Positions 21,263-53,660 of a DNA stretch of 56,163 bases are shown here, in pieces. Below the pieces are notes generated by a model. That model was not told where the DNA came from. It made no database searches and saw only the letters and a program-made list of their open reading frames with translations. Each line of letters begins with the position of its first letter. The stretch's first letter is position 1. The position numbers and the translations under genes are program-made. The stretch comes from Gammaproteobacteria bacterium. GTDB lineage: Bacteria > Pseudomonadota > Gammaproteobacteria > SZUA-229. The stretch lies in contig JAOULC010000022.1 in NCBI GenBank assembly GCA_029882215.1, positions 1 through 56,163 of the forward strand, written 5' to 3'.

Positions 21263-24200
21263 TTATGCAATGTTTTTCAGTAACTCTTCTGCTACCTGCT
21301 TTTGCTGGTCAGCACCTTCTTCAATGACTTCACGAAGAATACTGGCAGCACCTTCACCATCCCCCATATCCATATAGGCTCTGGCAAGGTCAAGCTTGGT
21401 ATTCACTTCATCAAGATCATCCGGTAAGGAGTTGATATCTATCGATTCATCCTCCGCAGATAAATCGACAGCACCCAGATCAAAACCTTCATCCTCAGAC
21501 AGGGGGTCATCAAAGTCTGCTGACAAATCAATATCACCCATATCCAGTGATATATCCTCCTCATCATCCGCCGACAAATCAAGGCTTTCAGTGTCTAAGT
21601 CGGCCATATCAAGGCTAAAGTCTTCTTCCGATGCAAGCTCTGTATCACCACTGGATACGTCATTCATCTCCAGCGCAGAGTCATCCATATCCAGAGACTC
21701 AAGGGCGTCACCCAGATCATCTTCATCATCTGATAAATTAAAACCACTATCATCAGTTTCAACAGTCATTGACGAGGCGACTTTTTCCGTTTCTTCTGCA
21801 GACACTTCAGCGTTTAATTCATCAAGCCCCAGATCGGCCATTTCAAAATCAAGGCTAAAGCTATCTTCGGACTCATCTTCTTCGTCATTCTGGTTCTGAG
21901 CCGGCTTTTCTTCACTCTCAAAGCCCGCTGCAGCCAGCTCCAGATCCAGCTCGTCCAGCCCGTCATCGTCTAGTGCAAAATTATCGTCATCAGCAACAGA
22001 TGAATCACCCAGATTTAACCCGTTCATATCAGCAGCAGAAATAACCGCTGTCGCTTCAAAGTCATCATCAAGACTGTCATCATCCAGACCATGAGTAAAA
22101 TCATCGTCAATTGAATCACCCAGCTCAAAATCAGCGGCCGCATCACCCAGATCAAAGTCGGTTTCGGGCTTGTTTAATGCCAGATCATCGACATCAAAGT
22201 CTTTCATGTCGCCAGCATCCCTGAACATTTCATTAGTAGCGTCAAGCTCACGACCCATACTAATGATACGTTGCCATTCAGCTGACTGAGGCTTAAGGCT
22301 CGCTTTCACCTGCTCTGCTAGTGGCAGAAAACTACCTTTATCTTTTGCTGCAAAATAAGTTTCCAGCAGCTTAACTTTATATTCATTGCGATCAGGGTTG
22401 GTTGTTATTGCTGTTTTTAATAACTCTTCTGCCTGCTGATAAATGCCATAAGCAAGGTAAACATCGGCTTCTGCCAGCACATCATCTTTAGGCCCGTCTT
22501 CTTCAGCTGGCTGATCATCATCCAGACTAATAACATCTTCTTCATCTGCGTCAGTTTCTGCCGCAAAGGCCTCTAATTCCTGCTCCAGATCTTCATCTTT
22601 TTTCTCATCAAAGTCGCCAAAGCCATCATCATCGGATAAATCGATATCAGCGACTTCATCGAAGTTAAAATCACCTGTTTCCGGTAATTCTGTTAGCACT
22701 TCCTCTGATTGTTTAGCTCTTTTACGTCTTATAGCAATTAATAAAAGCAGAATAACTATAACGGCTGGCACACCTGCAAGGATAGGCAGGTTAGCAGGGT
22801 CTTTAAGCAGATCTTCAATAAAGCCTGCCGGATCTTTTAGCAGATCATCAATCAAGTCAGTTGTGCTGCTTTCACCCACTACAACTGGCTTTGCCGGTGG
22901 GATAACAACTGGCGGGGTAGCTGCAGGCCCGGCTGATGAAACTTCATCTTTAAATACAGCACCTTCTGCTGGCTGCGTCGATGACACTGCATCCATCGCA
23001 ACATCTGGCTCGGTAGCCAGTGGCGTGGCAGCAGCATCTTCCGTTGGACTGACTGGCTCATTAGCCATGCTGTCTTCAGCTTTCATATCAACAGCAGCCG
23101 GCGTAACATCGCCAACAGGCTCATCATTTACTACTGTGTCGCTGATTTGTTCGCCGCTTTCAGGTGTCAGATCGCTCTGCAGATTTGCTAAATCACCGTC
23201 TTTAAGATTGAGCAGTCTTTCCATCTTCTTCATGCGCGTTTGCAAAGACTTGATGCGATCCTTCAGCTCCTCATTTTCTAACTTGCCGCTAGCTAACTCT
23301 TCAGAGGTGGATGATAGGTCCTGACGCAATTGTTTAAGTTCAGCATCAGGGTTTTGCAATCCAGAAGTAGCACCTTCGCTTGCATCGTCTTTAGCAGCCG
23401 ATGCAATCGTCAGGTGACCTTTAGCCGCTTTCACAGACTCAGGAACTGTACCACCATCACGTGCAATTTTATTGGCATTACGCTTAGCCGTGACGCCCTG
23501 GCTATACTCACGCCATAATGCATACTGCTCCCTGACCTGCGTCAAAGCCGTTTGCTTGCTCAGGTTATTAATTTCCTGCTGATCCGGCATACGCAGAATA
23601 TAACCGCGTTTTACGCCATTAATATTATCCTGAATAAACGCTTCCGGATTCCGTCGCAATAACGCCATCATCATTTGTTCAATGGAAATAGACGGATCGG
23701 TGCGTAATTGTTCTGCTATTTTCCAGGCGGTATCGCCTTTCTGTACGCGATAGCCGTTAGCTTGCACCTGATAGCGTGCAACAGGGCGTGTATTAACCTG
23801 GTTTGACTGTACTGGCACTTGTCGTTGCATCGCCTGTGGTGTCTGTGCATTGACCACAGGTGCATCCGCCATAGCCTGACTATTAACTGTGGTCGCGCCG
23901 TCTTCACCCGGGCGACCATACTGCTGATTAAGCTCATTAACCTGATTCGTTACCCGCGGTGCCACTACCGACTTTGAAGGCAACCCTTCCGGCGTCGCTT
24001 GCATAAAGACAGGAGGATCCAGCAACATGGTGAATTCGCGCAGGATACGCCCCCGCGGCCAGTCAATGTCTAAAAGAAAACTAAGAAAAGGCTCTCGAAT
24101 GGTTTTTTTACTGGTTACCGAGATATACGGCTGGCCATTTTTAACTTTAATAGTGAAGTTAAGGTCATTCAGGATAAATGGTCTATCTATACCTGCCCGA

Positions 24201-24394
24201 GCAAATTCTTCTCTTGAAGCCAGCTTAACAATAATTGTCTCTGCCGATTCTTTGCCAACAGATAACAATGCAATTTCAGCTTTCAACTCTTGATTAAGAG
24301 ATGAATGCAGCTCTATTTCACCCAGACCTAATGTGTTGCCTCTTGATGGTATCAACAAGGCAATACAAAACAGGGTTATGACTAACTTGCGCAC
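21263..24394 (-). CDS. fimV: FimV, LysM-containing polar hub protein for type IV pili
   Basis: The GTG at 24394 is chosen because GAGGGG stands seven bases upstream and the protein then opens with a signal-like hydrophobic stretch (LVITLFCIALLIP). Total length is 1043 residues. The periplasmic part starts LGLGEIELHSSLNQ, the family signature. A LysM domain lies at about 215-270 (VQKGDTAWKIAEQL), a coiled coil at about 350-410, and a membrane helix near 530-555 followed by RRKR. The cytoplasmic half is very acidic with repeated DLG/DDDF-like blocks. It includes a TPR region (LAYGIYQQAEELLKTAITT) and ends in the conserved FimV domain ARAYMDMGDGEGA. In Pseudomonas, FimV localises pilus and c-di-GMP components at the pole. 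Confidence 0.93.
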   Translation of the reverse strand: MRKLVITLFCIALLIPSRGNTLGLGEIELHSSLNQELKAEIALLSVGKESAETIIVKLASREEFARAGIDRPFILNDLNFTIKVKNGQPYISVTSKKTIREPFLSFLLDIDWPRGRILREFTMLLDPPVFMQATPEGLPSKSVVAPRVTNQVNELNQQYGRPGEDGATTVNSQAMADAPVVNAQTPQAMQRQVPVQSNQVNTRPVARYQVQANGYRVQKGDTAWKIAEQLRTDPSISIEQMMMALLRRNPEAFIQDNINGVKRGYILRMPDQQEINNLSKQTALTQVREQYALWREYSQGVTAKRNANKIARDGGTVPESVKAAKGHLTIASAAKDDASEGATSGLQNPDAELKQLRQDLSSTSEELASGKLENEELKDRIKSLQTRMKKMERLLNLKDGDLANLQSDLTPESGEQISDTVVNDEPVGDVTPAAVDMKAEDSMANEPVSPTEDAAATPLATEPDVAMDAVSSTQPAEGAVFKDEVSSAGPAATPPVVIPPAKPVVVGESSTTDLIDDLLKDPAGFIEDLLKDPANLPILAGVPAVIVILLLLIAIRRKRAKQSEEVLTELPETGDFNFDEVADIDLSDDDGFGDFDEKKDEDLEQELEAFAAETDADEEDVISLDDDQPAEEDGPKDDVLAEADVYLAYGIYQQAEELLKTAITTNPDRNEYKVKLLETYFAAKDKGSFLPLAEQVKASLKPQSAEWQRIISMGRELDATNEMFRDAGDMKDFDVDDLALNKPETDFDLGDAAADFELGDSIDDDFTHGLDDDSLDDDFEATAVISAADMNGLNLGDSSVADDDNFALDDDGLDELDLELAAAGFESEEKPAQNQNDEEDESEDSFSLDFEMADLGLDELNAEVSAEETEKVASSMTVETDDSGFNLSDDEDDLGDALESLDMDDSALEMNDVSSGDTELASEEDFSLDMADLDTESLDLSADDEEDISLDMGDIDLSADFDDPLSEDEGFDLGAVDLSAEDESIDINSLPDDLDEVNTKLDLARAYMDMGDGEGAASILREVIEEGADQQKQVAEELLKNIA

Positions 24395-24527
24395 CAGCAG
24401 TCCCCTCAATTTATTCCATATTATTTCAAATATAGTTCGACATGCATTTTTATCAAATTTGATATTTGAAACATCAATATTCGGCACATTCTTAAGAATA
24501 TGCTTTAAGTATGTGCTCTAATATAGA

Positions 24528-32656: not shown

Positions 32657-35152
32657 ATGAACATGCCGTTAGAAGGTAGCTACAGCCCTGAGCTCGTCTT
32701 TTTATCTGTTTTGATTGCAATGTTCTCCGCCTACACGGCACTTAACCTCATATCACGACTAAAGAGCAAACACTCCGCCCACATTACTCAGAGCCGGATT
32801 GGTACTAGTGGGCTAGTGCTTGGCCTTGGCGTCTGGTCAATGCATTTTGTCGGCATGATGGCTTTCTCACTGCCCGTACCGATTCATTATGACGGCGCAC
32901 TCACTTTAGCATCGCTGATCGTAGCGATTATCTCAGCAATTGCCGGGCTTGCTGTTGCCAATGCTAAAGAGAATAAAACCTGGTTAATTTGCGGTGGCGT
33001 TGTACTGGGGCTTGGCATTTCTTCAATGCACTATATTGGCATGGCCGCCATGCACGTTCAGGCCGGCTCTCACCACAATATTTTCCTGATTATTCTTTCC
33101 ATACTGACAGGCATCATTGCATCAGTCATGGCATTATGGATGGCATTTAATACAGGCAAAAGTGCAACTTCCACATTTTTACTAAAGCTTGCCAGCTCTT
33201 TTATAATGGGTTCTGCCATTGCGGGGATGCACTATATCGGAATGGCCGCAATGAGTTTTCATTCAGTCAGTCAGTTGAACTACACGGCGACTGGCTATGA
33301 GCTTAACCCGGATGTGATTGGAGTCGCACTCACCGGTACTATTTTATTATTAATGTCATTTGCTCTGTGGTCTTCCAGGGTAATTGCCAATTCTGATCTG
33401 GTTTATCAGAATGAAGAAAAAGTTCGTGCCATTACCGAAAATTTATCAGACGTTATTATCACTATCAACAGCAGTGGCATCATCGAATTTGCCAATGCCA
33501 CAGTCTTAAAACATTTTGGCTATCGGCCAGATGAAATCATCGGCCGGAATGTCAACATACTGATGCCACTACCAGAACAACAGCAGCATGATAATCACCT
33601 GCTAAACTACCTGCAAACGAAGCAGTCCGATATCATCAAAAATATCAATGAGTTTCAGGCCAGCCACAAAAATGGCAACACATTCCCCATAGACCTGTCC
33701 GTTACTGAAACAAAAATCTCAGGCAATACTATTTTTATCGGCACAATTCGCGATATCAGCGAACGCGTAGAAGCACAAAAAAAGCTGGAATATTTAGCCC
33801 ATCACGATGTTTTAACCACACTGCCAAACAGGCATTTTTTTTTACAAAACATCGACCATGCACTGGCCAGTGCAAAGCGCAATAGTCAGATCATTGCGGT
33901 TATGTATCTCGATCTTGACCGTTTTAAAGTCATCAATGACACGCTGGGGCATGATATAGGTGACAAGCTGTTACAAGAAATCGCCAAACGCTTAAAAAAC
34001 TGTATAAGAGCCAGTGACATCATTGCCCGCATTTCCGGCGATGAGTTCACCATTTTACTGGATCATTTATCAAATAAAAATGATATTGCACTCATTGCAA
34101 GAAAAGTGATTGATGAGCTGTCCAGACCTTTTGTTCACTCAGGTCACGAATTGTATAGCAGCGCCAGTATTGGTATCAGTATTTATCCGGACGATGTCAA
34201 GACAACATCCGGTATGATGCGACATGCTGACATTGCAATGTACCGGGCAAAATCAGAAGGCGGTAATCAGTACTGCTTTTATTCCACCGAAATGAACACC
34301 CGGGCAAGCAGCCACCTGAAACTCGAAAGCGAATTAAGACATGCTCTGGAAAGGGGTGAGTTTGAACTTTATTATCAGCCACAAATGGATAATGAAAACG
34401 GCGTTTATTCCGGTGCAGAAGCCCTGTTACGCTGGCAGCATCCGCAACTGGGTGTGCTGCCGCCGGGTGATTTTATTCCCATTCTGGAAGAAACAGGGCT
34501 CATTATTCCTGTCGGCGAGTGGGCTATTCGTACAGCCTGTCAGCAGGCTGTCAGCTGGGAGCAGGCCGGCTTGCCGCCAATGCATGTTGCCGTCAACCTG
34601 TCAGCAAGACAGTTCACCGAGCATGACATGGCAGATAAAATTTCAGTCATCCTGCAAGAAACCGGACTGCCTGCCGAGTACCTTGAACTGGAGATCACTG
34701 AAAATATTCTGATGCAACAGAACAACCATACAATGAACATTATTAACAAGCTGCATAAGCTCGGTATACAACTGGCCATTGATGACTTTGGCACCGGCTA
34801 TTCATCGCTGAGTTATCTGAGAAAATTCCCGATACATACATTAAAAATAGACCGCTCCTTTGTGCGTGATATTACAATGGATTCGGATGATGCTGCCATT
34901 GTGCAACTGATCATTGATATGGCACACAGCCTCAAATTAAATGTAATTGCCGAAGGTGTTGAAAGCAAAGAACAGGTTGAATTTCTGAAAGCCAGAAAGT
35001 GCTGGGAGATGCAGGGCTATTATTTTAGCAAGCCATTACCTGCTGATGAAATCACAGCCCTGTTACAGTCGCACGTAAATTCACATCAGCGAAGTGACTT
35101 GAGCCGCAAACAGCAAACCACGTCTACAGAGCACAATATAGAACCCGTCTGA
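32657..35152 (+). CDS. MHYT-PAS-GGDEF-EAL membrane c-di-GMP enzyme
   Basis: This 831-residue protein starts with a seven-helix MHYT sensor. Three signature copies are MHFVGM at 62, MHYIGM at 124 and MHYIGM at 191; they are proposed to bind copper or a gas such as O2, CO or NO. A PAS domain follows at about 253-370 (NLSDVIITINSSGIIEFANA). The GGDEF domain has SGDEF at 460-464 in place of GGDEF, a form still found in active cyclases. The EAL domain keeps all key motifs: EALLRW 588, VNLSARQF, LEITEN, DDFGTGYSSL, KIDRSF and AEGVES. It is therefore likely an active phosphodiesterase, with cyclase activity less certain. Confidence 0.92.
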   Translation: MNMPLEGSYSPELVFLSVLIAMFSAYTALNLISRLKSKHSAHITQSRIGTSGLVLGLGVWSMHFVGMMAFSLPVPIHYDGALTLASLIVAIISAIAGLAVANAKENKTWLICGGVVLGLGISSMHYIGMAAMHVQAGSHHNIFLIILSILTGIIASVMALWMAFNTGKSATSTFLLKLASSFIMGSAIAGMHYIGMAAMSFHSVSQLNYTATGYELNPDVIGVALTGTILLLMSFALWSSRVIANSDLVYQNEEKVRAITENLSDVIITINSSGIIEFANATVLKHFGYRPDEIIGRNVNILMPLPEQQQHDNHLLNYLQTKQSDIIKNINEFQASHKNGNTFPIDLSVTETKISGNTIFIGTIRDISERVEAQKKLEYLAHHDVLTTLPNRHFFLQNIDHALASAKRNSQIIAVMYLDLDRFKVINDTLGHDIGDKLLQEIAKRLKNCIRASDIIARISGDEFTILLDHLSNKNDIALIARKVIDELSRPFVHSGHELYSSASIGISIYPDDVKTTSGMMRHADIAMYRAKSEGGNQYCFYSTEMNTRASSHLKLESELRHALERGEFELYYQPQMDNENGVYSGAEALLRWQHPQLGVLPPGDFIPILEETGLIIPVGEWAIRTACQQAVSWEQAGLPPMHVAVNLSARQFTEHDMADKISVILQETGLPAEYLELEITENILMQQNNHTMNIINKLHKLGIQLAIDDFGTGYSSLSYLRKFPIHTLKIDRSFVRDITMDSDDAAIVQLIIDMAHSLKLNVIAEGVESKEQVEFLKARKCWEMQGYYFSKPLPADEITALLQSHVNSHQRSDLSRKQQTTSTEHNIEPV

Positions 35153-46322: not shown

Positions 46323-47291
46323 TCAAGCCCTGTCAAAAGGAAAAGCCAGTACCTCACTGATGGTGCTTTTCCCTGTTAATACCATTAACAACCGGTCTAA
46401 GCCAATCGCAACACCTGCACACTTTGGAAAACCGGCTTCCAGTGCCTGCAAAAAGTTCTCATCTACCGGCATCGCATCCAGCCCCGCCAACTGACGTTTT
46501 TTATTATCGCTTTCAAAACGCTTGCGTTGTTCAGCGCCATCCGTCAGTTCATTAAAACCATTGGCTAATTCCAGTTCACCGTAAAATATTTCAAACCGCT
46601 CTGCCACACGGCCATCCGCACTGATGCTGGCCAGTGCACATTGTGAGGCGGGGTAATCATATAAAACCGTAAAACCGTTTTTGTTAAAAGCCGGTGCCAC
46701 CGCCTGCGTGAGTATCCAGTCCAGCCATTCATCAAGGTTATCTCCTGCCATGCCTTGTGGTATCTCGATCTGCAAGCGACTGCAGCATGCTCGACAGTTT
46801 TCTACGCTGGTATTCAATGGATCGATATCAACGGTCTGTAGAAAGGCTTGCTGATAACTGACAGTTTGTATCTGAGTTTTCAGCAGGCTTTCCGCAGACA
46901 ACATGGCCAGTAAAGTGCTGACTTCTTGCATCAGTTGCTTATAGTCAAAACCCAGCCGGTACCACTCCAGCATGCTGAATTCAGGGTTATGATAAATGCT
47001 TTGCTCTTCCCGCCGGTAAACTTTACAGATCTGGTAAATAGACGGATAAGCCGATGCCAGAAGTCGTTTCATCGGGTACTCTGGTGAAGTATGCAGGTAA
47101 AACATTTGCGCTTGCATGGTCGTCGCGAAGCTTTCGATGTGCCGGTCAGTCACCGCCGCAGCAGAGATCGAAGGCGTATCAACCTCCAGTACATCACGTT
47201 CAGCAAAAAAAGCCCGGATACTTTGCAGCATCCGGGCTCTTTTTTGCATGACCTCAAGGCTGGCGACTGACTGCCACTTTTGAGTAGTCAT
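46323..47291 (-). CDS. epmA: EF-P lysyltransferase
   Basis: This 322-residue class II lysyl-tRNA synthetase paralogue attaches beta-lysine to Lys34 of EF-P without tRNA. RARMLQSIRAFFAERDVLEVDTP opens it (spans motif 1), YLHTSPEYPMKRLLA and QICKVYRREEQSIYHNPEF is motif 2, and CAGVAIGLDRLLMVL is motif 3. It lacks the anticodon-binding domain of LysRS, as expected. It follows efp by 12 bases on the same strand, so cotranscription is likely. Confidence 0.95.
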   Translation of the reverse strand: MTTQKWQSVASLEVMQKRARMLQSIRAFFAERDVLEVDTPSISAAAVTDRHIESFATTMQAQMFYLHTSPEYPMKRLLASAYPSIYQICKVYRREEQSIYHNPEFSMLEWYRLGFDYKQLMQEVSTLLAMLSAESLLKTQIQTVSYQQAFLQTVDIDPLNTSVENCRACCSRLQIEIPQGMAGDNLDEWLDWILTQAVAPAFNKNGFTVLYDYPASQCALASISADGRVAERFEIFYGELELANGFNELTDGAEQRKRFESDNKKRQLAGLDAMPVDENFLQALEAGFPKCAGVAIGLDRLLMVLTGKSTISEVLAFPFDRA

Positions 47292-47303
47292 TGACGGGTC
47301 AAA

Positions 47304-47873
47304 TTACTCTTTAACACGCGACACATACTCACCAGAGCGGGTGTCAATTTTCAGCACTTCACCAATTTCAATAAACAACGGCACTTTAACAACCGCACCG
47401 GTTTCTAAAGTTGCTGGCTTGGTACCACCTTGCGCAGTATCACCTTTGAGACCCGGGTCTGTTTCGGTAATTGTCAGCTCAACAAAATTCGGTGGCGTCA
47501 CCACAAGAGGCTCGCCATTCCAGAGTGTCATGGTGCATGCTTCCTGTCCTTTTACCCATTTAACCGCATCAGCCATAGCCGCTTCGCTGGCCGCATACTG
47601 CTCAAATGATGTCGGTTGCATGAAGTGATACAGCTCGCCATCTCCGTATAAAAACTCTACATCAATGTCTTCAACATCCGCTGCTTCAACCGATTCACCT
47701 GACTTGTAGGTTTTTTCAATGGTACGACCTGTTTTCAGGTTCTTCATTTTTACACGATTAAAGGCTTGTCCTTTACCCGGCTTAACCAGAACATTTTCTG
47801 TAATGGAACATGGATTGCCATCCAACAATAGTTTCAAGCCGTTTTTAAATTCATTTGTACTGTAAGTTGCCAT
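47304..47873 (-). CDS. efp: Translation elongation factor P
   Basis: The ATG at 47873 gives a 189-residue protein with GGTGA upstream; a longer reading from 47924 adds a non-conserved hydrophobic stretch and is rejected. It begins [30 protein letters not shown] places the modifiable Lys at position 34, exactly as in E. coli. It relieves stalls at polyproline motifs. Together with epmA and epmB it makes a nearly complete lysylation set; EpmC is not in the window. Confidence 0.96.
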
Positions 47874-47980
47874 AAATATCACCGTGAATAAACCAAGGCG
47901 CAATAATACCGAAAAAGACCTCATTAATACACTAACAAGCCTTATAATATGCGCATTTTATCTGCTAAGATTACACTAAT

Positions 47981-48958
47981 ATGAGCATCAGCTGGCAGCA
48001 ACAACTATCCAATAACATTAAATCGGTTGATGAGTTAATTGAAAAAACTGCCAATCATAATCTGCAAGACCTTTTTTCAGAGGCTGCCCATCAGCAGTTT
48101 AAAATCAAAATTCCGCTTAACTTTATTTCACGTGACGGCTGTGCTGACACAGATCCGTTGTTAAAACAGGTACTGCCGCATGCAGATGAAACCATACTGA
48201 CTGCAGGCTATCTGACTGACCCGGTTGGTGACATCGCGGCCATGAGCACGCCGGGGTTGATTCATAAATATAAAAACCGAGCACTCTTTATAGTAACCGG
48301 TGCATGCGCCATACACTGCCGGTATTGTTTCCGCCGGCACTTTCCGTACTCAGATTCACAAGTCAATAAAGAAAACTGGCAACCGGCTTTCGATTACTTA
48401 CGTGAGCACACTGAGATTTCAGAAATTATTCTCAGTGGCGGTGATCCGCTGATGATCTCCGATGAAAAGCTACAGCAACTGGTGCAGCAGCTGGAAAAAA
48501 TCCCTCACATTAAACGTTTAAGAATACACAGCCGGATACCCAGCGTCTTACCGGAACGCATTAACGACAATGTGATTTCTGTTTTACAGACAAGCCGTTT
48601 TCAGATTTCACTGGTTACCCATATCAATCACCCCGATGAATTAAGTCCGTTAAACAGAGCGGTTTTTCAACACTTAAAACAAGCCGGCGTTTTATTATTA
48701 AACCAGTCCGTATTGTTATTTGAAATCAATGACAGCGATAAAATTCTCGTTGAATTAAGCGAAAAACTATATGAATACGGCATTTTGCCGTATTATTTGC
48801 ACTTGTTAGATCCTGTTCAGGGCGCCGCGCATTTTTCTGTAAAAGAAGCTGACGCAATCGCCATAATGAACTCGATCAGCAAATTATTACCCGGATATCT
48901 CACGCCGAATCTGGTGAAAGAAGTTTCTGGTGAACAGGCAAAAATACGAATAGTGTAA
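47981..48958 (+). CDS. epmB: EF-P beta-lysylation protein, radical SAM lysine 2,3-aminomutase
   Basis: This 325-residue enzyme converts lysine to (R)-beta-lysine for EF-P modification. The radical SAM Cys triad is Cys109, Cys113 and Cys116 in GACAIHCRYCFRRHFPY. SGGDPLMISDEKL and LRIHSRIPSVLPERI are typical for the KamA/EpmB group; the late PYYLHLLDPVQGAAHF is characteristic of EpmB. It is divergent from efp with a 107-base gap, which contains a TATAAT at 47943 that may serve this gene. Confidence 0.95.
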   Translation: MSISWQQQLSNNIKSVDELIEKTANHNLQDLFSEAAHQQFKIKIPLNFISRDGCADTDPLLKQVLPHADETILTAGYLTDPVGDIAAMSTPGLIHKYKNRALFIVTGACAIHCRYCFRRHFPYSDSQVNKENWQPAFDYLREHTEISEIILSGGDPLMISDEKLQQLVQQLEKIPHIKRLRIHSRIPSVLPERINDNVISVLQTSRFQISLVTHINHPDELSPLNRAVFQHLKQAGVLLLNQSVLLFEINDSDKILVELSEKLYEYGILPYYLHLLDPVQGAAHFSVKEADAIAIMNSISKLLPGYLTPNLVKEVSGEQAKIRIV

Positions 48959-49073
48959 CAGTTATGTAAATTACACTAACAAATAGCTGGAAATTATTGT
49001 TTTTGTTATATTATTTATTATCAATACATATTTTAGCTGTACATATTTATTCGAAGGCAGGTACACAGGTTTA

Positions 49074-50927
49074 ATGAAACTTCATATTCCCAGTCAGACA
49101 GAGCCAGTAAAAGCAGCCTTCCCGAATCACCCGCGTAAAATCAAAAAGTGGTTAGCCCAGCTTCCCCGTGCCAGTATGGGTGATATGACACGACAAATTT
49201 ACAATGCGCTGGTTGACCTTAACCGTCAGCAAATGCCGGCAAAATATCGCATTGAAAACATGGAATTGTTTCTTGAGCCTATTGAACTCATTTTACATCA
49301 CCTGCATAAACACTTTATAAATCGCAGCCTGCCATTACCTGATAAAAGCCTTAAGATTATTAATTTAAATCAGGCACTGTTACGTGAAATCACTCACGGC
49401 TATAAAATCATTATTTTTGATGTCGCTAACGGCATCGATAAACTGGATGACAAAAATATTATTCTGGCCGCTCACCGCGCCATTACCAACACATCCCTGT
49501 TAGTGTTACGAGCCAGTCAGATTTACGCCAGTGTGCCTCGTGGTAGCTGGTGGGATGTCAATCATATCTATCAGTATATTTGCACCAAGAACTGGCAAAA
49601 AAAATCAGTTCCTGGCAAAACAAAAGAAAGTGCTGCAGTTAGTCTGGAACAAGCCTATAAAAAACTGGTGCTATTTTCTTTATCCCGGCCACATGCACTC
49701 AGGCACAGCGAAACAGAACGGGTTTTCAAACAACTGGATGATTGGAATGATCTGGTGAATTTGACAGCTATCCCGCTTGATACTGTACAGGACCGTTGTT
49801 TTTCGATTCAGATAAAGGCTGACTCACCGCCGGCCTGCATTAGCACGGCAGAACACCAGAACGATACAAACTTTGTTGCGGTTAATACCGAAGCGCTGGT
49901 CAATAAAATTCGCTCACTTTCATCCGATAAAAGCAAAGGCTACGATACCATCTCCACCAATGACGGGCTGACTCAGGAAACACTCAGAACCCTTGCAACA
50001 TCCTGGAGCATTTGCGCAAAACGACGCTTCTCACGCAACCATAAAAATGGTGGTATTTCGGCATCTATTGGGCTTACTCCAATTTATAACGCAATGTACT
50101 CAGAGTTAAACCCCGTAACAGAACCCCCCACACTACCAACACTCTCACTTGAAGCCATCAATACCGATTATAGCTATGACAAAGAGGATCACTATGATCA
50201 CAGCTTAATCACCCACCCAAACCTCAATGCAAGTATGAAGAACCTGCCCAATGCATGGGATATTGTCGCTTCTGGTAATGTGCTCACCGACACTTTCATC
50301 GGTGAACTTAAAGCCCGCGAAAAAGAGAGCTATCACCTGATCAAAGAAGAAGATGACCTGTACTGGGAGGTCATTAATATTTCAGCCGGCGGTTATTGCC
50401 TGCACTGGAACTCTGACACTACATCGAAAGCACAAGTGGGTGAATTAATAGGGATCAGAGAAAAGGAACCCGATCACAGCTACCATTGGCGTGCCGGCAT
50501 TATCCGCTGGATGCAATACACACAAGGCAGCGGGCTTGATATCGGCGTTCAGGTGTTATCGCCAAAAGTCATTATCGCCACTGTCGAACGCATTGGCACA
50601 GACTATCAGGACCCTTTTGAGTGCCTGATGTTACCGGGCATTAAACCAATTAACCAACCCTCCACTCTGTTATTACCGGCACATGCCTTTAAAATAGGTA
50701 CCCTGCTTAAAATTCATGTTTACGAACGAACCATTAATATAAAGCTCAGTCATGTAGCTGAACACACCGGCTCGTTCACTCAGTTCCAGTTTACTCAGGT
50801 TGACGAAAAAACCGCTGCGGGCAGTAAAAAGCAGCTTAAAAAAGAAGCGGTTAAACCCGCAGCGAAACAGCAAGATCACAATTCTGAAGACGGCGATGAC
50901 TTTGATTCTATCTGGTCATCACTTTAA
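49074..50927 (+). CDS. Uncharacterised protein with C-terminal PilZ-like region, upstream of fimX-like gene
   Basis: This 617-residue soluble protein has no signal or membrane segment. Residues 1-300 are mostly helical, with WLAQLPRASMGDMTRQIYNA near 26-45. Further on, SICAKRRFSRN has the R317-xxx-R321 spacing of PilZ arginine pairs. From about 430 comes WEVINISAGGYCLHW, with N435-x-S437-x-x-G440, then VGELIGIREKE and WRAGIIRWMQYTQGSGLDIGV, the strand pattern of PilZ beta barrels. The arginine pair is far from the NxSxxG motif, so c-di-GMP binding is uncertain. The tail is Lys-rich then acidic. I recall a similar gene next to psd/fimX in Pseudomonas. Function unknown. Confidence 0.75.
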   Translation: MKLHIPSQTEPVKAAFPNHPRKIKKWLAQLPRASMGDMTRQIYNALVDLNRQQMPAKYRIENMELFLEPIELILHHLHKHFINRSLPLPDKSLKIINLNQALLREITHGYKIIIFDVANGIDKLDDKNIILAAHRAITNTSLLVLRASQIYASVPRGSWWDVNHIYQYICTKNWQKKSVPGKTKESAAVSLEQAYKKLVLFSLSRPHALRHSETERVFKQLDDWNDLVNLTAIPLDTVQDRCFSIQIKADSPPACISTAEHQNDTNFVAVNTEALVNKIRSLSSDKSKGYDTISTNDGLTQETLRTLATSWSICAKRRFSRNHKNGGISASIGLTPIYNAMYSELNPVTEPPTLPTLSLEAINTDYSYDKEDHYDHSLITHPNLNASMKNLPNAWDIVASGNVLTDTFIGELKAREKESYHLIKEEDDLYWEVINISAGGYCLHWNSDTTSKAQVGELIGIREKEPDHSYHWRAGIIRWMQYTQGSGLDIGVQVLSPKVIIATVERIGTDYQDPFECLMLPGIKPINQPSTLLLPAHAFKIGTLLKIHVYERTINIKLSHVAEHTGSFTQFQFTQVDEKTAAGSKKQLKKEAVKPAAKQQDHNSEDGDDFDSIWSSL

Positions 50928-51011
50928 ACAGGCCATATTGGAATCAAATTTCCATATCTGTTGATTACATATTAGAATGTCAGAATGTATCACGTGGCTA
51001 TGGAGTAATTT

Positions 51012-53099
51012 GTGGGTAAAGAAACATCCGTCAACATCATCGTAATTGACGATTCTTTCAACAATGAAGAAAAACTGGTCAGCCTCATTCGTGGCCTTGG
51101 TTCTGCGTCGCATTCAGTTCGGGTAGAAGATGACGAAGATCTCGAAGAAGCCCTCAAAAAGATCACCCCTGATCTTGTCATCTATAGTAATGGCATGGAA
51201 CTGATTGATCTCCCCGCCACCGTAAAAATACTCGCAAATCATGACCTTTTAAAAAGAACATCTGTTCTTGCCTCTTGCAGGGATGGTCAGACCAACGATG
51301 TAGACATCGCCATGGCTCAGGGTGCTAATGACCTGATCGATATGGACAATGAAGTACACCTTAAGAATGTGCTCAACCGCGAACTAAAACAGATCGCCAA
51401 CAATCGCCGGCTTGCCAAGCTGGAAACAGCCTATACTGAAAGTGAGCGCCGCTGTGAATCACTAATGGATAGCTCACGCGACGCCATTGCCTATATCCAC
51501 GAAGGCATGCACATTTATTCCAACCAGTCCTACCTTGAGCTTTTTGGTATAGAAGAATCCGGTGATCTGGAAGGCACACCGATACTTGATATGGTCAGCA
51601 GCAGTGATCAGGACAGTTTCAAAAAATTCCTGCGTGATTACGCAAAAACAGAAGGCATCGCGTCTTTAGAAAGTACGCTTAAAAATTCGGATGCCACAGA
51701 ATTTAAAGGAAAAATAGAATTCTCGCCGGCATCTATCGAAGGCGAACCCTGCATACAGATCATTATTCGCAATGAAATAGACCAGAAAGAATTAGAAAAA
51801 CAGATCAATATGCTAAGCCAGCGTGATCAGGTAACCGGCCTCTATAACCGGCAGTTTTTTATTGATTCACTTGAAAAGACCATCGTCAAAGCGAAGAAGG
51901 ACAAACTGAAATCAGCCTTACTGTATTTAAGCCTTGATAACTTTCAGGACTTCAAAAGCACTTTAGGTGTTATTGGCAGTGACCAGCTATTAATCGAAAT
52001 CGCAGAGTTACTGAAAAAGACCTGCTCAGAGAACGACGTGCTGGCACGCTTTCACGGCCACCACTTCACCATCACCCATGAAAATTCAGACCGTCAAGGT
52101 GCTGAGGCCTGCGCTAATAAAATCAGAGAAGCCATCGAAGAATTCAGCACTGTAATCAATGGCACATCAGCCACCACCACCTGCACCATCGGCATCAGCC
52201 TGATAGAAGAAAAATCACCGGAATCCAGCGAAATAATATTGCGGGCAGAAAAAGCAGCAGAGGAATCACAGCAAACCGGGCCCAACAAAGTCTCTGTTTA
52301 TATTCCTAAAGAAGGCGAACTGACACAAAAAGAAGTTGACTCACAAGTATCCGGCGCTTTAATGGATGCACTTAAAAACAATATGTTTGCACTGTTTTAT
52401 CAGCCTGTCATCAGCCTGCACGGTGACACCGAAGAACGTTACGAAATTTATTTAAGAATGAAAGGCGAAAAAGGCGAGCTCATTATGCCTGATGATTTCA
52501 TACCGGCAGCGGAAAGAAGCGGTTTAATGCCGCTGATTGACCGCTGGGTCATTGGCAATGCACTAAAAATTCTGGTTGCGCAGAAAAAAGCCAAGAAAAG
52601 CACGAGGTTTTTTATTAAGCTCAGCGAAGCATCGCTGCGTGATGAAAAGCTACTGCCCTGGCTGGAAGAAAAAATTCACGCCGCCAAACTTAATAAAGAC
52701 AGCATTATCTTTGAAATTAAAGAGTCTATCGCCGTCACTAATCTAAAGCAGTCTAAAATACTGGCTGAAGGCCTTAACGCACTGGATTGTGGCTTTGCAC
52801 TGGATGATTTTGGTACCGGCATGAACCCGTTCCAGCTGTTAAAACACATTCCTGCCAACTACCTTAAGATTGAAAGTTCATTTATGGATCAGCTTTCTAC
52901 CAACACACAAAACCAGGAAGCCGTTCAAAACATCACTGAAACGGCCACAAAAATGGGTAAACTGACCATCGCTCAGGGCATCCATGATGCCAGTAGCCTG
53001 TCTGTGTTGTGGGGCATGGGGATCAACTTCATACAGGGCAACTTCCTGCAGGAGCCAATGCCAGAACTCAATTATGACTTTACTGAGATGGCCGGTTAA
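51012..53099 (+). CDS. fimX: FimX-like degenerate REC-PAS-GGDEF-EAL c-di-GMP receptor
   Basis: A GTG start at 51012 follows GGAG six bases upstream; the product has 695 residues, close to the 691 of P. aeruginosa FimX. Domains: REC at about 8-125, in which the phospho-acceptor position reads DLVIYSNG instead of an Asp; PAS at about 148-260; GGDEF at 270-430 with HGHHF (348-352) replacing GGDEF; EAL at 445-685 with EIYLRM (478-483) replacing EALLR. DDFGTGMNP (598) is retained and QGNFLQEP ends the fold. Catalysis is therefore unlikely; a c-di-GMP binding EAL pocket is expected, as in FimX, which controls type IV pilus assembly. It follows the PilZ-like gene by 84 bases. Confidence 0.88.
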   Translation: MGKETSVNIIVIDDSFNNEEKLVSLIRGLGSASHSVRVEDDEDLEEALKKITPDLVIYSNGMELIDLPATVKILANHDLLKRTSVLASCRDGQTNDVDIAMAQGANDLIDMDNEVHLKNVLNRELKQIANNRRLAKLETAYTESERRCESLMDSSRDAIAYIHEGMHIYSNQSYLELFGIEESGDLEGTPILDMVSSSDQDSFKKFLRDYAKTEGIASLESTLKNSDATEFKGKIEFSPASIEGEPCIQIIIRNEIDQKELEKQINMLSQRDQVTGLYNRQFFIDSLEKTIVKAKKDKLKSALLYLSLDNFQDFKSTLGVIGSDQLLIEIAELLKKTCSENDVLARFHGHHFTITHENSDRQGAEACANKIREAIEEFSTVINGTSATTTCTIGISLIEEKSPESSEIILRAEKAAEESQQTGPNKVSVYIPKEGELTQKEVDSQVSGALMDALKNNMFALFYQPVISLHGDTEERYEIYLRMKGEKGELIMPDDFIPAAERSGLMPLIDRWVIGNALKILVAQKKAKKSTRFFIKLSEASLRDEKLLPWLEEKIHAAKLNKDSIIFEIKESIAVTNLKQSKILAEGLNALDCGFALDDFGTGMNPFQLLKHIPANYLKIESSFMDQLSTNTQNQEAVQNITETATKMGKLTIAQGIHDASSLSVLWGMGINFIQGNFLQEPMPELNYDFTEMAG

Positions 53100-53113
53100 T
53101 TTCGTAGTAAATG

Positions 53114-53144
53114 AGTGATAAGTAAACTCTTTTTACTTATCACT
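53114..53144. other. Perfect 13-bp hairpin after the fimX-like gene
   Basis: AGTGATAAGTAAA and TTTACTTATCACT pair fully with loop CTCTT. It begins 15 bases after the fimX-like stop and could stop transcription or protect the 3' end, but only GTCCTAG follows, with no T-run. I therefore do not name it a terminator. Confidence 0.7.
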
Positions 53145-53150
53145 GTCCTA

Positions 53151-53177
53151 GTTCACGCATAACAGCTATGCGTGAAC
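53151..53177. promoter_or_regulatory. Perfect 11-bp palindrome just before the DUF302 ribosome binding site
   Basis: GTTCACGCATA and TATGCGTGAAC pair fully with loop ACAGC. It ends five to six bases before the AAAAAGGA ribosome binding site. It could be a protein operator or an RNA stem that protects or masks translation start. Confidence 0.6.
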
Positions 53178-53198
53178 GACTTAAAAAGGACATTTATT

Positions 53199-53660
53199 AT
53201 GAAAAAGCACATTTTCACACTCTCATTTCTACTGGCACTCTCCCCTTTTCTTGCCATTGCCGGGCATAACGACGGTCTGATCACAAAACCGAGCCGCTAT
53301 TCAGTCTCTCAGACACTCGACAAGCTAGAAGCGGCTTTAAAAACGAAAGGTATCAGTGTTGCCATGCGCTGGCAGCATGATGTCAAAGCCGGCGCTGTTG
53401 GTATTGCGTTACGACCCACAGAATTACTGGTTTTTGGTAACCCTAAAATTGGCAGCCATCTGTTTACATCAAACCAGGCAGCCGGCATCGACCTGCCGTT
53501 AAAAGCACTGGCCTGGGAAGATAAAAATGGAAAGGTTTTTTTAAGTTATAACGACCCCGCGTATATCGCAAAGCGTCACCACATCAATGACCGCGACGAA
53601 ACCCTTAAAAAAATGAGCACGGCTTTAAATAAACTCAGTGATATTGCAACCGGTAACTAA
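53199..53660 (+). CDS. Exported DUF302 family protein
   Basis: The ATG at 53199 is chosen for its AAAAAGGA at nine bases and because the signal peptide then begins properly (MKKHIFTLSFLLALSPFLAIA, cut before GHNDG). The 153-residue product has YSVSQTLDKLEAALKTKGIS, then ELLVFGNPKIGSHLF and ALAWEDKNGKVFLSYNDP, the DUF302 pattern. Its function is unknown; the fold in solved members binds small ligands or forms dimers. It stands alone between two palindromes on its 5' side and a strong terminator on its 3' side. Confidence 0.88.
   Translation: MKKHIFTLSFLLALSPFLAIAGHNDGLITKPSRYSVSQTLDKLEAALKTKGISVAMRWQHDVKAGAVGIALRPTELLVFGNPKIGSHLFTSNQAAGIDLPLKALAWEDKNGKVFLSYNDPAYIAKRHHINDRDETLKKMSTALNKLSDIATGN

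Follow-up and report, generated by a model that had tools for sequence, protein, structure and literature searches.

The window, by which the whole analysed stretch of 56,163 nucleotides of a gammaproteobacterial genome is meant, contains two consecutive genes on the forward strand, namely a probable fimW homologue at 49074..50927 coding for a protein of 617 amino acids (ATG start, stop codon included in the coordinates) and a fimX homologue at 51012..53099 coding for a protein of 695 amino acids (GTG start preceded by GGAG). An intergenic gap of 84 nt (50928..51011) separates the two reading frames, and a scan of positions 48900-53250, this gap included, did not reveal terminator-like sites on the forward strand. 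The EF-P modification genes epmA, efp and epmB (46323-48958) adjoin fimW on the upstream side and htpX is found downstream of the pair. More distantly, the gene for FimV is located at 21263-24487, 24.6 kb away (Pfam FimV_N, 1.5e-39) and in agreement with the 25 kb given in the original prediction; beyond this distance no other tie of FimV to the fimW-fimX locus was found. Equally encoded in the window, at 32657-35152, is an 831-amino-acid protein with weak similarity to FimX (24.6% over 566 amino acids), probably another GGDEF/EAL protein. The genome also encodes PilB (above the family cut-off) and twelve other PilZ domains detected by the Pfam PilZ model; a short PilZ protein of this genome (L003) is taken by us to be the pilus PilZ.

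In the FimX homologue, PAS, GGDEF and EAL domains are recognized by Pfam, and the REC domain, which has no Pfam match of its own, was placed via the full-length alignment to FimX of a genome of the Pseudomonas aeruginosa group (E 2.7e-152). The best PDB matches are FimX of P. aeruginosa and Xanthomonas (best E 5e-86), with which the homologue has the REC-PAS-GGDEF-EAL order and degenerate catalytic motifs in common. Loss of the phospho-Asp, GGDEF and EAL catalytic motifs had been claimed initially. This holds for the first two, with Ser at the phospho-acceptor position within 'DLVIYSNGM' and 'HGHHF' at the GGDEF position, but the EAL site has been stripped only partly: EAL reads 'EIY', the Asn (to Lys) and the catalytic-loop Glu (to Gln) are lost, but the first Glu, DDFGTG, the Lys and the Gln of QG are retained. 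The EAL site of the homologue here is less degraded than that of P. aeruginosa FimX, from which DDFG is missing too. Throughout 30 FimX relatives, the common forms of the phospho-acceptor are never Asp, GGDEF is scrambled, EAL reads EV(F/Y) or EIY, the metal-binding Asn is replaced by Lys and the catalytic-loop Glu by Gln, with the first Glu and DDFG mostly retained. Judged by these degenerate positions, the FimX homologue should be a receptor rather than an enzyme, as had been anticipated.

The predicted split PilZ domain

Several parts can be distinguished in the 617-residue protein, all encoded on the forward strand. A helical N-terminal domain (residues 1-290, 49074..49943) is confidently predicted and corresponds to no Pfam family; its resemblance to designed helical proteins or 14-3-3 was rejected, as Z values of 7-9.5 are too low for helical bundles. 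It is followed by the RxxxR motif (R317-R321, 50022..50036) and strand 1 (residues 327-332, 50052..50069) of the PilZ domain, a mostly disordered insert between PilZ strands 1 and 2 (approximately residues 347-428, 50112..50357), and the remaining barrel (residues 431-498, 50364..50567), which includes the NxSxxG motif (N435-G440, 50376..50393). A second beta region without assigned fold (residues 515-575, 50616..50798) and, behind a disordered linker, the C-terminal motif DDFDSIWSSL (residues 608-617, 50895..50924) complete the protein. The insert bears W395 in a D[VI]W context, which is conserved in 76 of 90 members of the FimW clade delineated below.

RxxxR and NxSxxG are located exactly where they had been predicted, at 317 and 435. 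From R321 to N435 the spacing is 113 residues, with a median of 107 and a range of 47-130 among the fimX-adjacent relatives, whereas PilZ motifs are usually about 20-30 residues apart. Both arginines are invariant in all 61 fimX-adjacent homologues and so is G440, the full [DN]xSxxG being present in 53 of the 61. The sequence has no meaningful match to a Pfam, NCBIfam or PHROGs family or to a PDB sequence; PF07238 does not match above the cut-off, and weak matches to it occur in 6 of 38 family members (best E 0.015).

An AlphaFold model of the protein, built on 44 sequences (mean pLDDT 75), shows the strand at 327-332, then low confidence over residues 349-404 (pLDDT under 50), and strands again from residue 431. 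Alignment of the model with VIA-align retrieved the PilZ structures of BcsA (Z 9.1), MotI (8.3), PP4397 (7.9), VCA0042 (7.9), MapZ (7.4) and MrkH (7.1), with rmsd of 2.6-3.8 over 80-89 residues and nearly all six covering model residues 318-498. By themselves these Z values are middling; the list of beta matches consists mainly of PilZ proteins, and in the model both motifs appear in register. The best PilZ match by Foldseek has an E of 1.8e-3, i.e. not below 0.001. When the family profile, with the insert removed, was compared by hhalign with the PilZ domains of the same genome, a score of 28.6 was reached, a value that did not exceed 11.6 when columns were shuffled 20 times, the probability being 51%, and RRFSR was paired with RRHYQR and NISAGG with DISLKG. 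In line with the PilZ-type protein originally proposed, the 617-residue protein is thus predicted to contain a PilZ barrel in which the two c-di-GMP motifs are conserved but widely separated, as the barrel is interrupted between strands 1 and 2 by a loop of about 100 residues that is mostly disordered.

That the motifs are chance occurrences in an unrelated fold, as the missing Pfam match and motifs that are 113 residues apart rather than the usual 20-30 might suggest, is barely credible and largely refuted already, since the structural and the profile matches both take the two motifs in register and skip the insert, and since the protein is homologous to FimW, a c-di-GMP binder. On the basis of conservation, profile comparison and fold comparison, motif matches by chance were rejected. 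The missing Pfam match is accounted for by the split itself, as it is because the PilZ domain is split that Pfam and NCBIfam miss the FimW family.

Barrel and both c-di-GMP motifs would be common to the modelled protein and BcsA, MotI, PP4397, VCA0042, MapZ and MrkH, from which it differs by the insert of about 100 residues and by the additional N-terminal helical domain and second beta region, both of which lack a known family. Equally, the type IV pilus protein PilZ (about 120 amino acids, a PilB chaperone) belongs to the same domain superfamily and the same machine; the protein here differs in its 617 amino acids and its retained RxxxR.

Kinship with FimW of Pseudomonas aeruginosa

Searching the Pseudomonas family with the P. 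aeruginosa FimX sequence from PDB 4j40 identified one genome (68% GC, 6.6 Mb) with a FimX 97% identical to that of P. aeruginosa; from FimX identity, GC content and genome size we infer that it belongs to the P. aeruginosa group. An open reading frame of 607 amino acids (L182:2783-4603) ends 68 nt upstream of this fimX, and the gene 3' of fimX reads as serB; therefore, the upstream reading frame must be FimW, for which we assume the P. aeruginosa locus tag PA4958. The 617-residue protein aligns to it from end to end (blastp, 25% over 634 columns, E 2.5e-73). RxxxR (ERTFQR) and NxSxxG (NHSPGG) are split in this FimW as well, with 106 residues between them, the C-terminus reads EEDFDSLWKSL, and there is equally no Pfam or NCBIfam match. 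The Pseudomonas-family genome G197 matches the family profile with an E of 2.1e-123 even though it had been left out of the profile. The two proteins are thus alike in their position before fimX, split motifs, FDxhWxxL-type tail and full-length homology; they differ in that identity is only 25% and in the surroundings, which consist here of epmB, efp and epmA upstream and htpX downstream and, in the P. aeruginosa group, of a serB-like gene downstream. With this low identity, the function could have shifted.

In P. aeruginosa, fimX and FimW are encoded together (PMC11656802). PMC10212136, PMC12564702 and PMC13432727 describe FimW as a polar PilZ-domain c-di-GMP effector that promotes type IV pili, with c-di-GMP-dependent dimerisation, polar recruitment and stimulation of pili set out in PMC10212136, where the work is credited to Laventie et al. 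2019. Consequently, neither the unknown role nor the novelty that had been attributed to the protein stands, as a homologue of a P. aeruginosa protein that, according to this attribution, was published in 2019 is encoded here. Up to late 2024, there had been no report of FimW interacting functionally with either FimX or PilB (PMC11656802). Deletion of fimW in strain PA14 leaves wild-type twitching (PMC12288467), so that the role of FimW may be conditional and linked to surface contact.

Taken together, the 617-residue protein is with good confidence homologous to FimW and very probably its orthologue, and as such would act on type IV pili as a c-di-GMP effector of the cytoplasm. The widely spaced motifs and the low identity to FimW would also suit a relative of FimW that has lost c-di-GMP binding and serves as an adaptor with a structural role, as the pilus protein PilZ does; this is quite unlikely, however, as RxxxR in 61/61 and [DN]xSxxG in 53/61 homologues have been preserved, motifs that are typically lost in non-binding PilZ proteins.

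Gene neighbourhood, sub-families and the C-terminal tail

A FimW-family homologue is encoded by 44 of 58 related genomes. A scan of public genomes recovered 51 loci, nearly all from uncultured Gammaproteobacteria including Thiotrichales, and, in keeping with the conserved neighbourhood that the original prediction called for, fimX is located directly downstream in 46 of them; of the five exceptions, three are contig ends. In the relatives, the epmA-efp-epmB order upstream is mostly retained and htpX is often found 3' of fimX. Of 369 genomes chosen from across the Gammaproteobacteria, 181 encode the family (paralogues included) and 123 encode FimX, with 97 encoding both (Fisher p 2e-16), whereby the FimX threshold was strict, such that non-detection does not prove that FimX is missing. 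The fimW-fimX pair is real and old, and already known from P. aeruginosa.

Variations of this arrangement exist. At several loci, the FimX homologue is located 600-1,400 nt from fimW, and a same-strand gene filling these gaps was not found; antisense translations suggest an opposite-strand gene, perhaps serB. A tandem pair of fimW-like genes follows epmB at L041:3883-7588 and at L116 and L117, with fimX absent from its usual place and htpX downstream in L041; the respective genomes (G057, G204 and G311) encode a distant FimX-like protein (about 25%) elsewhere. Two homologues of 34% identity (L103, L108) have neither fimX nor epmB within the fetched flanks.

A tree of 127 family members separates a clade of 90 from a clade of 37 sequences with a support of 0.998. 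The clade of 90, which as such has moderate support (0.81) in a midpoint-rooted tree, comprises all 61 fimX-adjacent and all 59 FDxhWxxL-bearing members, the clade of 37 comprising none of either; therefore, the tail marks FimW proper. The 617-residue protein belongs to the fimX-linked and not to the paralogue clade. Members of the clade of 37 (L237, L245, L238, L217, L043 and L040 among others) are tailless split-PilZ proteins never encoded beside fimX, and adjoin genes for RND/HlyD transporters, TatC, Hda and others, with pilus genes not among their neighbours.

The tail might be an element by which FimW and FimX form one complex, with the FDxhWxxL helix docked onto FimX, for example onto its degenerate REC domain, in analogy to the FliM and CheZ peptides on CheY. 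The adjacency of the genes is consistent with such a complex, as is the presence of the tail in 41 of 61 fimX-adjacent versus 14 of 54 non-adjacent members (p 1e-5, a value which overstates independence due to kinship). Folding of the natural read-through fusion of FimW residues 312-617, the gap and FimX, with paired and unpaired alignment rows, did not, however, place the tail with confidence, as its pLDDT was about 50-53 (block means) versus about 46 in FimW alone, with a pTM of 0.38. Furthermore, L258 (genome G339) and L262 (genome G110) are FimW-clade proteins with tail in genomes that encode PilB, and a FimX match at E 1e-20 was not found in either genome, which indicates that the partner of the tail need not be FimX. 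As possession of the tail goes with membership of the FimW clade, and as the tail is still present where FimX is not detectable, adjacency to fimX alone was rejected as its explanation. A single FimW-FimX complex is therefore rather unlikely. Equally, of the partnership with FimX proposed at the outset, it is the gene neighbourhood that has been seen, and FimW-clade proteins also occur in genomes without detectable FimX.

Proposed mode of action and its implications

By analogy with the P. aeruginosa literature, c-di-GMP would bind to the FimW homologue via R317/R321 and the NxSxxG loop, whereupon the protein would dimerise and collect at the cell pole. Binding by the split PilZ domain would switch FimW into a form acting at the pilus base, where it would promote pilus assembly, either jointly with the non-catalytic receptor FimX or along a parallel route. 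From their conservation, the D[VI]W-bearing insert and the FDxhWxxL tail are candidate contact elements through which a partner at the pilus base may receive the signal. One step further, the insert could be a c-di-GMP-gated loop out of the PilZ barrel which together with the tail recruits a component of the pilus motor independently of FimX, a tentative proposal that is more doubtful than not. The D[VI]W loop motif, the FDxhWxxL tail of the FimW clade and the omission of FimW from Pfam and NCBIfam have possibly not been reported.

Loop motif and ten-residue tail of the fimX-linked clade provide two small candidate contact sites for the pilus machine. Moreover, there is an annotation gap, as a widespread c-di-GMP receptor family, FimW included, escapes both Pfam and NCBIfam; with the PilZ domain split and PF07238 silent, c-di-GMP receptor censuses based on PF07238 would undercount the FimW family. 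If the gated insert were real, FimW would represent a family of split-PilZ effectors present, paralogues included, in approximately half of the gammaproteobacterial genomes sampled, and a second clade, as yet without a name, would lie outside the pilus system.
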